From positions 1-39,512 of the IMG/VR virus record IMGVR_UViG_3300010151_000035: DNA of 39,512 bases; one strand, given 5' to 3'. How positions within the stretch are numbered: position 1 is the first letter of the stretch; each line of letters starts with the position of its first letter. Source of the DNA: a virus. Positions 7,445 through 25,008 of the stretch are shown here, piece after piece. Below the pieces are notes generated by a model, which had not been told where the DNA came from, made no database searches, and saw nothing but the letters and a program-made list of their open reading frames with translations. Made by a program: the position numbers and the translations under genes.

Positions 7445-7861
7445 TTACATTAAATGTTTCCACTTGCCCTCCGCAAGATTTAGAATTCCTCCGATATCTA
7501 CTCCAGAATCATCAGAAGCAATTCCGGATAATGCCCCGGTGGCGTTTTCAGTTTCTGGAGCTATGCTTTTGGTGCCGGCAAAAACATCCACGTCGCCTAA
7601 TTTGGCTGACTCATTTAATCTTTTGATTCTTTCTTGGCGTTGTTCTTCGGCTGCATTGGCCTGACGGGCAAGTTCTTCTTGATCTGGTCCAGTTGATTTC
7701 TTGCTTTCGACTGTTAATCCTCCAACAACAACTCGTTGGTCGCTTAAGCCATTGGCTACTTCTGTGATGATTCCAGATAATACACCATCTTCAAAAATAC
7801 ATTCTTTGATACATTCTTTTATAAGAGGCTTCAACATTTTCTTGAGTTCACTCTTTTTCAT
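7445..7861 (-). CDS. Conserved-type small phage protein with amphipathic N-terminus
   Basis: 138 aa. Residues 1-40 form an amphipathic helix (MKKSELKKMLKPLIKECIKE, then FEDGVLSGIITEV), reminiscent of the targeting-like N-termini of the neighbouring tiny proteins. The middle (about 60-85) is a charged helix (EELARQANAAEEQRQERIKR) and the C-terminal 50 residues are Gly/Ser/Asp-rich. It overlaps the 40-aa gene upstream by 14 bases and ends 10 bases before the bS21 gene, so it belongs to the same unit. A head-associated or internal virion protein is plausible because it is in the protease-linked cluster. No known fold recognised. Confidence 0.75.
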   Translation of the reverse strand: MKKSELKKMLKPLIKECIKECIFEDGVLSGIITEVANGLSDQRVVVGGLTVESKKSTGPDQEELARQANAAEEQRQERIKRLNESAKLGDVDVFAGTKSIAPETENATGALSGIASDDSGVDIGGILNLAEGKWKHLM

Positions 7862-7971: not shown

Positions 7972-8229
7972 TTATACTTTTCCCTGCCAACCGGTGCCGC
8001 CCTGTTTTTCTTTCTTCTTGGCTGCTTTCTTGAAGCGTTTTGCTAATGCTTTGCGCTCTGGAGTACATGTTTTCTTGGTCATCGGAGTACAATATCCTTT
8101 ATGTTTGGGATCAACAGCTTTTTGAATCCAATCATCTTCTTCCTCAAAGACAGATCTATCCCCCTCTTCTAAGACACTCCCCAACTCTTCATAAATGATT
8201 TTGTTTAGTTCTTCTCTCGTGATCTTCAT
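7972..8229 (-). CDS. Small MKIT-type protein with basic tail (putative internal head protein)
   Basis: 85 aa. The N-terminus MKITREELNKIIYEELGSVL belongs to a three-member family in this window (also the 58-aa and 81-aa proteins). After an acidic linker, residues 40-60 contain DPKHKGYCTPMTKKTCTPER, with two cysteines, and the C-terminus is very basic (ALAKRFKKAAKKKEKQGG), suggesting nucleic-acid binding. The IYE and VLE tripeptides fit the (I/L)xE cleavage rule of T4-type prohead proteases. Its ATG overlaps the stop codon of the 58-aa gene (ATGA). Proposed role: packaged DNA-associated protein whose N-terminal targeting peptide is removed by the gp21-like protease encoded two genes upstream. 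The role is inference; the gene is well supported. Confidence 0.75.
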   Translation of the reverse strand: MKITREELNKIIYEELGSVLEEGDRSVFEEEDDWIQKAVDPKHKGYCTPMTKKTCTPERKALAKRFKKAAKKKEKQGGTGWQGKV

Positions 8230-8404: not shown

Positions 8405-9043
8405 TTAATCTCCTAGTATATCTTGAATAAGATCGTTTAAATTTGATTTCTCTTTATTTTCGTTTAGATAAACACCAATCTCTGCATCCATTGGAGGCGA
8501 AGACATTGATTTTTGGGGTTTCATATAAGCGCCGGGTGTCGAAGGCTCTGAAACGATATCAAAGCAAATCAATTGAAAATCATCTTCAACGATTGTGACG
8601 CCATTGGCTTCGCTTACGGAACCCAAGCCTCGCGATGAGATCCCAAGTTTAACGCCTGCTTTTAATAAATCTTTTAGAATGCGACCGGAGGGAGTATCGA
8701 GAACTTCAATTTTTCCCATCACGCTATCACCATCCCACCACATCTTTGATACAAGATGCGAAGCATTTTTAAGATTAACAACACTCTCATCGGGATGATC
8801 TAACTCTCCCAAAGAACGTCTTTCTTTAATTGATTTCTGATATCCTTCTACTTCTCTCGCCAATGTCGGCTTCTGATAAACTCTTCCATTGCCGTTCTTA
8901 GTGCCGGCTTTTTGGCAGACACCAACTAAATATACCGCGCCTTCATTAACGACGCGCTTTCGCTCAGATTCAGAAAGAATATCGATGGCGCATTGCCCAT
9001 CTGGGCAAAGCTCAAAATATTCTTGTAAAAGTTTCTTCGACAT
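8405..9043 (-). CDS. 21: Prohead core protease, T4 gp21-like (herpesvirus-type serine protease fold)
   Basis: 212 aa, matching T4 gp21 (about 212). Visible motifs are NGNGRVYQKPTL at about 50-61, the histidine motif GELDHPDE with His83, and the serine motif LGISSRGLGSV with Ser136/Ser137, followed by FDIVSEPSTPGAYM. These are the hallmarks of phage prohead proteases with a His/Ser active site. It processes scaffold, capsid protein and internal proteins after (I/L)xE. The C-terminal 35 residues may be a self-cleaved tail. The leader is unusual: the ATG has only a weak GGAAA, and a hairpin lies at 9067-9083. It is separated from the scaffold and capsid genes by about 5.4 kb, unlike in T4. Confidence 0.92.
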   Translation of the reverse strand: MSKKLLQEYFELCPDGQCAIDILSESERKRVVNEGAVYLVGVCQKAGTKNGNGRVYQKPTLAREVEGYQKSIKERRSLGELDHPDESVVNLKNASHLVSKMWWDGDSVMGKIEVLDTPSGRILKDLLKAGVKLGISSRGLGSVSEANGVTIVEDDFQLICFDIVSEPSTPGAYMKPQKSMSSPPMDAEIGVYLNENKEKSNLNDLIQDILGD

Positions 9044-22892: not shown

Positions 22893-23138
22893 TTATGCTT
22901 TTAAATCATCGAAGATTTTATTCAATTCTTCTTTTAAGGTTAAAGCCAATTCTTCATCTTTCTCTTGAAGTGCTTCGAAATAGTTAGCACCCAACTTTTC
23001 AAATCTCTCTTTCATGAGTTGTAGAAGTTGTGGGCTCTTGCCTTCAACCAACGAAGTCTTTTTGACCTCCTCAAGAACCTGATGTCTCTTGATTTCCTCA
23101 TTGATGATCTGATTAAGTTTTTGTTTGGTGATTTTCAT
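22893..23138 (-). CDS. 81-aa MKIT-type small protein
   Basis: N-terminus MKITKQKLNQIINEEIKRHQ shares MKIT-x3-LN-x-II-x-EE with the 58- and 85-aa proteins of the head cluster. The rest is a charged helix (QLLQLMKERFEKLGANYFEA, ending EELNKIFDDLKA). GAGGGG precedes the ATG. INE and VLE tripeptides fit prohead-protease specificity. It lies away from the head genes, between the transglycosylase and the gp47/46 fusion gene, as T4 internal-protein genes are also dispersed. Internal virion protein is the inferred role. Confidence 0.72.
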   Translation of the reverse strand: MKITKQKLNQIINEEIKRHQVLEEVKKTSLVEGKSPQLLQLMKERFEKLGANYFEALQEKDEELALTLKEELNKIFDDLKA

Positions 23139-23172: not shown

Positions 23173-23682
23173 CTACTGGTTATCCATTTTACTTTTCTGT
23201 ATTATCTTAATCTTTCGTCGTATTTTGCGTGCTAATTTCATCACTTTCTGTGCATAGCGCATGCCGACTTTGCGTGGTTTTCCTTCTTGTTTGCAGCGAA
23301 AACCTTTGCTATAACCGCAGAGGGCGTGCTTGAGGTTTCGTCGAGCGTATTTGTGATACCAGAAATTAAGAACACGTGCGCCTCGATGGATACTTACATT
23401 AGGATCTTTGAGGTCGCGACATGTGAGCTTTTTCCCGAAACGATTGTTGCGTCCAGCAGAATAGCGAGGAAGCACTTGGGTTAGTCCGCAAGCGTTCGAT
23501 TTACTTGTGGCGGCCGGAGTCCATCGGCTTTCCACATATATTAGAGAAACTAGAACTGTGGGATCTATATAATTTTGATCGCTAGCCTCAATGACTATTT
23601 CCATATGCTCACAAGCTATATCAGCATTTGGAAGCATTAATGAAACGTAGGCTGCGCAAATAAGGTTCGCCATATTCACCAT
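23173..23682 (-). CDS. Lytic transglycosylase-like murein hydrolase (SLT/GH23 family)
   Basis: 169 aa (166 if the second ATG at 23673 is used). The SLT core is visible: LIYVESRWTPAA with catalytic Glu51, NACGLTQVLP at 63-72, IHRGARVLNFWYHKY and the aromatic motif ALCGYSKGF. The enzyme cleaves the glycan backbone of peptidoglycan. The first 20 residues (MANLICAAYVSLMLPNADIA) are hydrophobic and could be a weak signal or SAR-like anchor. The C-terminus is very basic (KLARKIRRKIKIIQKSK), as in wall- or LPS-binding tails. The promoter at 23689-23717 would give an almost leaderless transcript. It may be the endolysin or a virion-associated muralytic enzyme. Confidence 0.88.
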   Translation of the reverse strand: MVNMANLICAAYVSLMLPNADIACEHMEIVIEASDQNYIDPTVLVSLIYVESRWTPAATSKSNACGLTQVLPRYSAGRNNRFGKKLTCRDLKDPNVSIHRGARVLNFWYHKYARRNLKHALCGYSKGFRCKQEGKPRKVGMRYAQKVMKLARKIRRKIKIIQKSKMDNQ

Positions 23683-23688
23683 AGTTGT

Positions 23689-23717
23689 AGTATATCAGCT
23701 TCTTTTATATTTGTAAA
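23689..23717 (-). promoter_or_regulatory. Sigma70-like promoter for the transglycosylase gene
   Basis: Minus strand: TTTACA (-35, 23717-23712), 17-base spacer, TATACT (-10, 23694-23689). The start would fall at about the A of the ATG at 23682, suggesting a leaderless or very short-leader mRNA. The -35 lies 8 bases beyond the tmRNA 3' CCA. Confidence 0.65.
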
Positions 23718-23724
23718 GTTGTTT

Positions 23725-24071
23725 TGGTGGAGGTGTCGGGAGTCGAACCCGAGTCCTAAATATTTCCAATATAACGTCATTCACAAGGTTAGTCAGTTTG
23801 CGAACTCTGACAAACTCACACCGCGCACTATCAAGTTTGTCCTATGGGTCCTACTTGAAAAAACCACTTGACCGTCTACCCTTCGAAAAGGACCATCAAC
23901 GGAACAGTCTTTGGATAACAAGGCTCTCATTATTCCCCGTGATTATGCCGCTAGGGCGTAATCAAAAGTAACGTTATCGTTAGCAGTTAAAGTTTTGAAT
24001 GTTTTTACTGTGCCACTCACACACCCTTGCACGTTATATTTTTAATACTCAGTCGATACCAGTTCACCCCC
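23725..24071 (-). ncRNA. ssrA: tmRNA (one-piece) encoded by the phage
   Basis: 347 nt. The 5' end GGGGGTGAACTGGTATCGAC and the 3' end form the tRNA-like domain: a 7-bp acceptor stem (GGGGGTG with CACCTCC, one G-U pair), discriminator A and an encoded CCA at 23727-23725. The T arm is TCGGG-TTCGACT-CCCGA. ATATAACGT near the 5' end pairs with ACGTTATAT near the 3' end (helix 2). The tag frame (23984-23943) reads GCT to TAA, encoding ANDNVTFDYALAA, ending in the protease-recognised ALAA. tmRNA with SmpB frees stalled ribosomes and tags the product. The 5' end overlaps the primase stop codon by 8 bases. One-piece form, no permuted break. Confidence 0.95.
23943..23984 (-). other. ssrA tag: tmRNA tag-peptide reading frame
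   Basis: Fourteen codons including TAA, starting with the resume codon GCT. With the tRNA-borne alanine the tag would be A-ANDNVTFDYALAA. It keeps the AND start and YALAA end of the E. coli-type tag (ANDENYALAA) with extra residues between them. Confidence 0.88.
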
Positions 24072-25008
24072 GTAAATTAATTAATTCGTCTATTAAATAG
24101 TCATAAGATTTGATAAAGACAGCCTCTTTCTTCCTCTTTAAAAAGGCTTCCTGGGACATGTCTCCTACGTCCGCGTATGGCGAAATATCAATCTTGTGAA
24201 CTTCTATATCATACTCCAAAAGAGACTTGATTATCTTCAGAGCCTTTGTCTGGGCATCTAAATCCAAAGCAATATAAATTGGCGTATCACTCTTTACAAT
24301 CTCTTGAAATAATCTTGAATTTTCCCTCAAGGTAGATCCTAACAATGGAACTGCGTTTTCTCCTGCTTTGATGGCATCAAATACGCCCTCAACTAAAACC
24401 ATATCCTCATCAAAATCCAGGTATAACTCATTGAAAATAATGTCTTTTGAGACTTGTGGATTTTGATATTTCTTCCAATCTCTCGAATAGCTTCTAGCTA
24501 TGAAGTAATTTGCTTTTCCTGTCATTCCAAACGAGGGAATAATAATGCGCCCCTCATATTCTCCGTCCAAACAATATCCCATCTTCCACCTGATAACATC
24601 TCGTTTTGTGATGCCGCGACTTTCCAAGTAATTCAAAGGATAGAGAGAAGTTTTAGGGAGGCTTCTGTTCGCGAGAGACATGAAATCATCTGGAAGATCA
24701 AGTATCTGTTCTTCTTCGATCTCTTCCTTCTCAAAAAGAACCTCAGATAATGATTTTGTTTCCACTTCTTCTGTGAACGAAGACCACTCTCTGCGTTGAT
24801 CATATGACCCGTAACGTCTGACAAGACGATAAATGGAACGTCCTGAGTATTCACAAACCCAACACTTGAAGACGTCTTTTTCCACATTGATGGAGAGCTT
24901 GTTTTTATGGTGCTGGCACTTCGGACACTCAAATAATATTTCGTCTCCGGAGCGAAAGGAATAGCCCAATATGTTTTTTAAAATACTTAGCTTTTTTCCA
25001 CTTGACAC
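24064..25008 (-). CDS. 61: DnaG-type primase, T4 gp61-like
   Basis: 314 aa, close to T4 gp61 (342). The N-terminal zinc-binding domain shows CPKC (28-31), HH (33-34) and CWVC (49-52). A TOPRIM core follows: DMVLVEGVFDAIKAG with Glu207 and IALDLDAQ with Asp249 and Asp251. Such primases make RNA primers on the lagging strand together with a gp41-type helicase, which is not in this window. The start is GTG with GCGGGG nearby, overlapping the RuvC-like gene by 22 bases. Its stop codon TGA lies inside the 5' end of the tmRNA gene. Confidence 0.88.
   Translation of the reverse strand: MSSGKKLSILKNILGYSFRSGDEILFECPKCQHHKNKLSINVEKDVFKCWVCEYSGRSIYRLVRRYGSYDQRREWSSFTEEVETKSLSEVLFEKEEIEEEQILDLPDDFMSLANRSLPKTSLYPLNYLESRGITKRDVIRWKMGYCLDGEYEGRIIIPSFGMTGKANYFIARSYSRDWKKYQNPQVSKDIIFNELYLDFDEDMVLVEGVFDAIKAGENAVPLLGSTLRENSRLFQEIVKSDTPIYIALDLDAQTKALKIIKSLLEYDIEVHKIDISPYADVGDMSQEAFLKRKKEAVFIKSYDYLIDELINLRG

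Follow-up and report, generated by a model that had tools for sequence, protein, structure and literature searches.

A complete, probably functional one-piece tmRNA gene in an uncultured marine T4-like phage

We found that a 39.5-kb virus record from IMG/VR, analyzed here over its whole length and called the window, bears a complete one-piece tmRNA (ssrA) gene on its minus strand. The gene is best read as a genuine and functional tmRNA, maintained in a clade of uncultured marine T4-like phages, with a tag lineage of its own and a dependence on host SmpB, that would carry out ordinary trans-translation with host proteins during infection; we put this reading at a probability of roughly 0.86. 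Phage tmRNAs as such are already known, and what is particular here is the phage-lineage tag together with an unusual overlap between the tmRNA and the primase gene.

Identity and structure of the tmRNA gene

The gene occupies 347 nt (positions 23725–24071, minus strand) and was returned both by ARAGORN and by cmscan with the Rfam tmRNA model RF00023 (120.1 bits, E = 1.5e-46; gathering score 47), whose alignment spans the whole model (1–374) and exactly the bases called by ARAGORN. A first-pass annotation of this DNA had proposed a tmRNA here, with these two programs as checks; both reproduce its coordinates to the base and add the strand, which it had not given. It is the sole RNA gene that ARAGORN reports in the window, and likewise the sole Rfam match above the gathering score. 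Both programs place its parts in unpermuted order, and neither finds in it the intervening segment of a permuted two-piece gene.

Every part of the proposed one-piece architecture (7-bp acceptor stem, T arm, helix 2, and encoded CCA) was recovered, all on the minus strand. The acceptor stem pairs GGGGGUG (tmRNA nt 1–7; 24065–24071) with CACCUCC (23729–23735), followed by an encoded discriminator A and CCA end (ACCA; 23725–23728). The T arm has a 5-bp stem and a UUCGACU loop (23736–23752), and helix 2 is an interrupted helix with its 5' strand at 24025–24051 and its 3' strand at 23757–23788. Directly upstream of the tag frame lies pseudoknot PK1 (23996–24024), with the conserved stems UGUG/CACA and UGAGUG/CAYUCA. 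The tag frame itself, as called by ARAGORN, reads ANDNVTFDYALAA and ends in a UAA stop (23943–23984), with the alanine resume codon GCU at 23982–23984; a compact 3' pseudoknot with stems UUUG/CAAA and UCAG/CUGA is found at 23793–23814.

In a structural alignment of 16 phage tmRNA genes, that of the window and those of 15 relatives, all seven acceptor pairs are retained in all 16 sequences, with a G-C to A-U change at one pair, and the T arm is 100% paired, with a C-G/U-A/G-C exchange at one pair. The three segments of helix 2 are 93.8–100% paired and contain seven double-changed pairs; the PK1 stems are 91.7–92.5% paired, with one double change and a G-U/G-C exchange. Two pairs of the UCAG/CUGA stem in the 3' pseudoknot are double-changed, and the UUUG/CAAA stem, which has no double change, is the weaker evidence. 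Quantification of a hand-written structure that comprises the acceptor stem, T arm, helix 2, PK1, and the compact 3' pseudoknot revealed pairing in 95.8% of cells, 12 pairs with both partners altered, and 29 double-changed cells. None of 500 shuffles matched these scores, and when partners were slid by 1–3 columns pairing went down to 36–51%. RNAalifold, run on the same alignment, returned 61 pairs, 17 of which have at least one compensatory change. Since compensatory changes are spread across the 16 phage genes and no shuffle equals them, the structure reflects selection on an RNA, and chance is excluded. The acceptor and helix 2 pairing of related phages, singled out in the first-pass annotation as the place where the call might fail, is undisrupted, with compensatory changes instead.

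The acceptor stem also has a G3-U70 wobble, an identity element for alanine, in all 16 sequences. Alanylation through the G-U pair is established for bacterial tmRNA (PMC3985003), and the wobble of the window tmRNA is consistent with it. Almost no variation is seen in the T arm, the 3' strand of helix 2, or the resume region when 65 distinct related sequences are compared. The region between the tag and the 3' pseudoknot varies in length, with whole genes of 305–425 nt, which fits the report that the later pseudoknots of bacterial tmRNA are variable and dispensable in vitro (PMC3985003). The tmRNA of the window is complete, one-piece, phage-borne, and probably functional.

The virus and the maintenance of the gene in its clade

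The window encodes a terminase, a portal, a major head protein, a prohead protease, an SbcC-like nuclease, a primase, and a RuvC-like resolvase, and from these families we infer a T4-like myovirus. Its closest relatives are uncultured contigs. The nearest isolates, Flavobacterium immuto phages and Microcystis phage Mel-JY01, are only 31–42% identical to it in terminase, portal, and primase, and a host assignment through them failed at this low identity. These isolates have no tmRNA above the RF00023 cut-off; in Mel-JY01 there is no more than a match of 17 nt below the threshold, within what ARAGORN calls a tRNA-Leu. A DNA-level search with the window tmRNA gave no match in 50,697 phage records, and isolates sought through the relatives yielded only distant phage tmRNAs, mostly via the T arm.

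Eight of the 44 clade records collected by terminase or primase carry a tmRNA above the cut-off; the many records of the wider clade without one count against the main reading, though most are short fragments and one of them (the contig of L085 and L233) has a tmRNA cut by the contig end. Within this marine T4-like clade the gene has been maintained down to primase identities of about 70%, and this conservation marks it as an evolutionarily maintained gene. The first-pass annotation had described tmRNA genes as rare in phages. With tmRNAs in 402 of 18,146 phage genomes (2.3%) in a 2022 survey (PMC9004378), and others annotated or predicted in Streptomyces, Cellulophaga, Stenotrophomonas, Alcaligenes, and Xanthomonas phages, they are less exceptional than was claimed. 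ARAGORN calls with implausible tags (Cellulophaga Calle_1, the unpermuted call in Xanthomonas Rb1, and LR756508) were left out as evidence.

Elsewhere in the window, we observed that otherwise different small proteins start with MKITKxxLxxIIxEEL (7972–8229 and 22893–23138, with a looser copy at 7445–7861). Many small proteins share this start, including proteins behind the primase in L083–L088; a second leader, MKLIFExWRKYL, occurs in L086 and L087. By analogy with T4, MKITKxxLxxIIxEEL may serve as a shared leader, for capsid targeting or another purpose, which the prohead protease (8405–9043) might cleave.

The tag marks a phage lineage

The tag frame ending in ALAA that the first-pass annotation had read is the one called by ARAGORN, and its YALAA end is retained in relatives. 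At 13 residues the tag is indeed longer than that of E. coli, but the length carries no special significance and is uninformative: tags in the tmRNA database are most often 10 residues long and can be as short as 2 (PMC11915505). Relatives keep the ANDNV start and the YALAA end, with synonymous codon changes, and vary in the middle (T/S/G/D, F, D/E). The eight tmRNA-bearing relatives gathered via terminase or primase, and hence unselected for their tags, have ANDNV[T/S/G/D]F[D/E]YALAA in seven cases and ANTDTYSEYALAA in one. Relatives sought by the tmRNA 5' end alone show mostly the ANDNVxxxYALAA form, plus ANNNVAFDYALAA and ANDNSVNFDYALAA, and the same search also yielded unrelated tags such as ANEQSFALAA.

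The ANDNVxxxYALAA pattern was found in 97 IMG/VR stretches, whereas a search of 84,980 bacterial and archaeal genomes (contigs of 3 kb or more) turned up a single contig. This lone match is a Hyphomonadaceae MAG with a permuted gene and the tag ANDNVAEGYALAA; no one-piece gene with the pattern occurs in the 84,980 genomes, a set from which the hosts may be missing, and a search of one bacterial phylum (398 genomes) yielded nothing beyond the same MAG. The viral matches are mostly one-piece genes, and an ANDNVxxxYALAA-like form is common to phages of very different hosts (marine contigs, Streptomyces phages). Because the pattern is this frequent in IMG/VR against one permuted bacterial gene, and is shared by phages of such different hosts, we regard it as a phage-lineage tag rather than one recently copied from a known host gene. 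The argument of the first-pass annotation that a one-piece gene implies a non-alphaproteobacterial source presupposes a recent capture from a host and is weak, as no bacterial one-piece gene in these genomes has this tag form; nor does a comparison of tags, suggested there for naming the nearest host lineage, identify the host, since the tag form marks a phage lineage.

We also observed that permuted phage tmRNAs, namely the four among the viral matches (L109, L120, L127, L189) and that of XacN1 (L226), carry one-piece-like tags (AANDNVPFDYALAA, ANDNVAPRYALAA, ANANTFDYALAA), a likeness that suggests convergence or exchange between the gene forms.

Overlap with the primase gene

The DNA primase gene (24064–25008, minus strand; phrog_47, E = 2.2e-41) has no stop codon of its own in the window. 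Its UGA (24064–24066, minus strand) is supplied by nt 6–8 of the tmRNA, in the acceptor region. In tmRNA precursors the 5' end is formed by RNase P cleavage (PMC3985003); here the cut would fall at the 5' side of 24071 and should strip the primase mRNA of its stop codon, making it a nonstop message. We found no convincing sigma-70-like promoter just upstream of the tmRNA, in a scan blind to phage-specific promoters, and hence co-transcription with the primase would be the simplest reading; the tmRNA has no clear terminator of its own.

This layout bears on a rival explanation, in which control is coupled to maturation: release of the tmRNA by RNase P would remove the primase stop, and the nonstop mRNA would then be tagged and the primase destroyed. 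Since RNase P cuts at the tmRNA 5' end, a transcript that yields the tmRNA could not also give an intact, stop-bearing primase message. We consider such control unlikely, and it would supplement the main explanation more than replace it. It has a precedent in the E. coli ArfA mRNA, which is cut by RNase III and then undergoes trans-translation (PMC3985003), and the identical junction in L082 and L088, where the tmRNA also lies directly behind the primase (69% identical between L088 and the window), speaks for it. So do the relatives without an adjacent tmRNA, in which the primase has its own stop: in L083–L087 this stop comes a few nt earlier and another gene then follows. The tmRNAs of L083, L084, L086, and L087, however, are not overlapped at all.

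The overlap recurs with a second gene. In around twelve other phages (L107, L117, L130, L134, L135, L137, L138, L141, L150, L157, L169, L179), an unrelated gene of about 128 aa extends 30–36 nt into the start of the tmRNA; its product has a conserved core, LEDLIAIKLEL...KTKKEAARFLGIDY, and a weak helix-turn-helix similarity, with no family assigned. Overall, an ORF runs from upstream into 16 of 58 phage tmRNAs, against 2 of 32 phage tRNAs, which again favors coupling, but the 16 cases amount to only about three arrangements and may reflect mere genome compaction, and in L208 the ~128-aa gene has its own stop, with two tRNAs between it and the tmRNA. With so few independent arrangements and the separate stop in L208, we rejected the overlap as proof of regulation. 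A targeted literature search found no description of a protein gene overlapping the 5' end of a tmRNA, which is weak evidence of novelty.

If coupling were true, the output of the tmRNA would be wired to the fate of the neighboring mRNA, and other phages would have reached the same layout with an unrelated gene. The sharing of a stop codon or 5' end with two unrelated upstream genes offers a concrete test case for nonstop mRNAs made by maturation in phages, and the primase-tmRNA layout could help decide between ribosome rescue and redirected proteolysis as the role of phage tmRNAs.

As to expression signals in other phages, a TCTTTnA motif lies within 25 nt upstream of 18 of 65 other phage tmRNAs, vs. 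1.5% of control windows; the window tmRNA has no motif of this type upstream. A fuller form is G[T/A]TCTTTnAnAAT (e.g., L119, L146, L170, L177, L182, L198), and several of the motifs, which we take to resemble boxA of rRNA leaders, sit below a TTGACA/TATACT-like promoter. The tmRNAs that bear the motif probably have their own promoter. On the other side of the window tmRNA, between it and an SLT transglycosylase gene (23173–23682), we noted an extended -10 promoter-like site (TTTACA-17-TATACT with TG; 23689–23717, minus strand), whose expected transcription start falls at or after the first ATG.

Host partners and proposed mode of action

A self-contained phage trans-translation module would have to encode SmpB (PF01668); none of the 29 phage records searched, which may be fragments, contains it, and the same search was positive in 10 bacterial controls and in the Hyphomonadaceae MAG. 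The phage tmRNA must therefore use host SmpB, and it would likewise rely on host AlaRS, EF-Tu, and proteases. Under ordinary trans-translation, the tmRNA would come from a transcript shared with the upstream primase gene, in which host RNase P would form the tmRNA 5' end; host AlaRS would load it with alanine via G3-U70, and host SmpB and EF-Tu would then bind the charged RNA. During infection it would rescue ribosomes that had stalled on broken or stopless mRNAs, and the stalled proteins would receive the tag (A)ANDNVTFDYALAA and be destroyed by host proteases recognizing the C-terminal LAA. Lytic infection can be expected to yield many broken mRNAs, and added rescue capacity would be a reasonable benefit. 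Rescue on degraded mRNA and redirected proteolysis, the two roles offered in the first-pass annotation, are both plausible candidates.

The lack of SmpB in the phage records would also suit a decoy that competes for host SmpB and titrates it, a role suggested for the gene of mycobacteriophage DS6A, which consists of the tRNA-like domain alone and, on expression in E. coli, inhibits the cell's own tmRNA (PMC11915505, PMC4131195). The DS6A gene is without a tag domain, whereas the window gene retains the tag frame, PK1, the resume region, and a degron-like YALAA; its tag half is conserved with covariation, so that the mRNA half appears to be under constraint, and we hold a decoy to be highly improbable. 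Hardly credible is a passenger or scar left by integration into a host ssrA, for although tmRNA genes often serve as integration sites of mobile elements (PMC11915505), this gene is complete, not a 3' fragment, and structurally constrained, with compensatory changes throughout the clade, T4-like virion genes around it, a tag form found in no bacterial one-piece gene of the 84,980 genomes, and no integrase in ten window proteins scanned.

Comparison with known systems

The window tmRNA resembles the bacterial one-piece tmRNA described by RF00023 in its tRNA-like domain with a G3-U70 wobble, helix 2, PK1, resume codon, YALAA-ending frame, and CCA end. It differs in being phage-borne, in the overlap of its 5' end with a protein gene, in its variable pseudoknot region between the tag and the 3' end, and in a tag, ANDNVTFDYALAA, whose one-piece ANDNVxxxYALAA form did not turn up in the 84,980 genomes. 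The Bxz1-type tmRNA of mycobacteriophages and the DS6A gene are, as here, phage-encoded ssrA genes, from a different host group; the DS6A gene is unlike that of the window in lacking the tag half and inhibiting the host system (PMC4131195). Marine methylophage Melnitz and the pelagimyophages are likewise marine T4-like phages with a tmRNA, but theirs is permuted, two-piece, and of the alphaproteobacterial type, and is reported to lie under a glutamine riboswitch (PMC9004378). The Streptomyces phages of the Karimac group (Boydwoodruffvirinae) share with the window a one-piece gene and a 13-residue tag, ANSNVASAYALAA, of the AN-x-NV-xxx-YALAA form, and their tmRNA is locally similar in DNA, around the tag and at the 3' end, to that of a related marine phage (L136); it differs in its length of 279 nt, its actinobacterial host, its phage family, and its position, which is not behind a primase.
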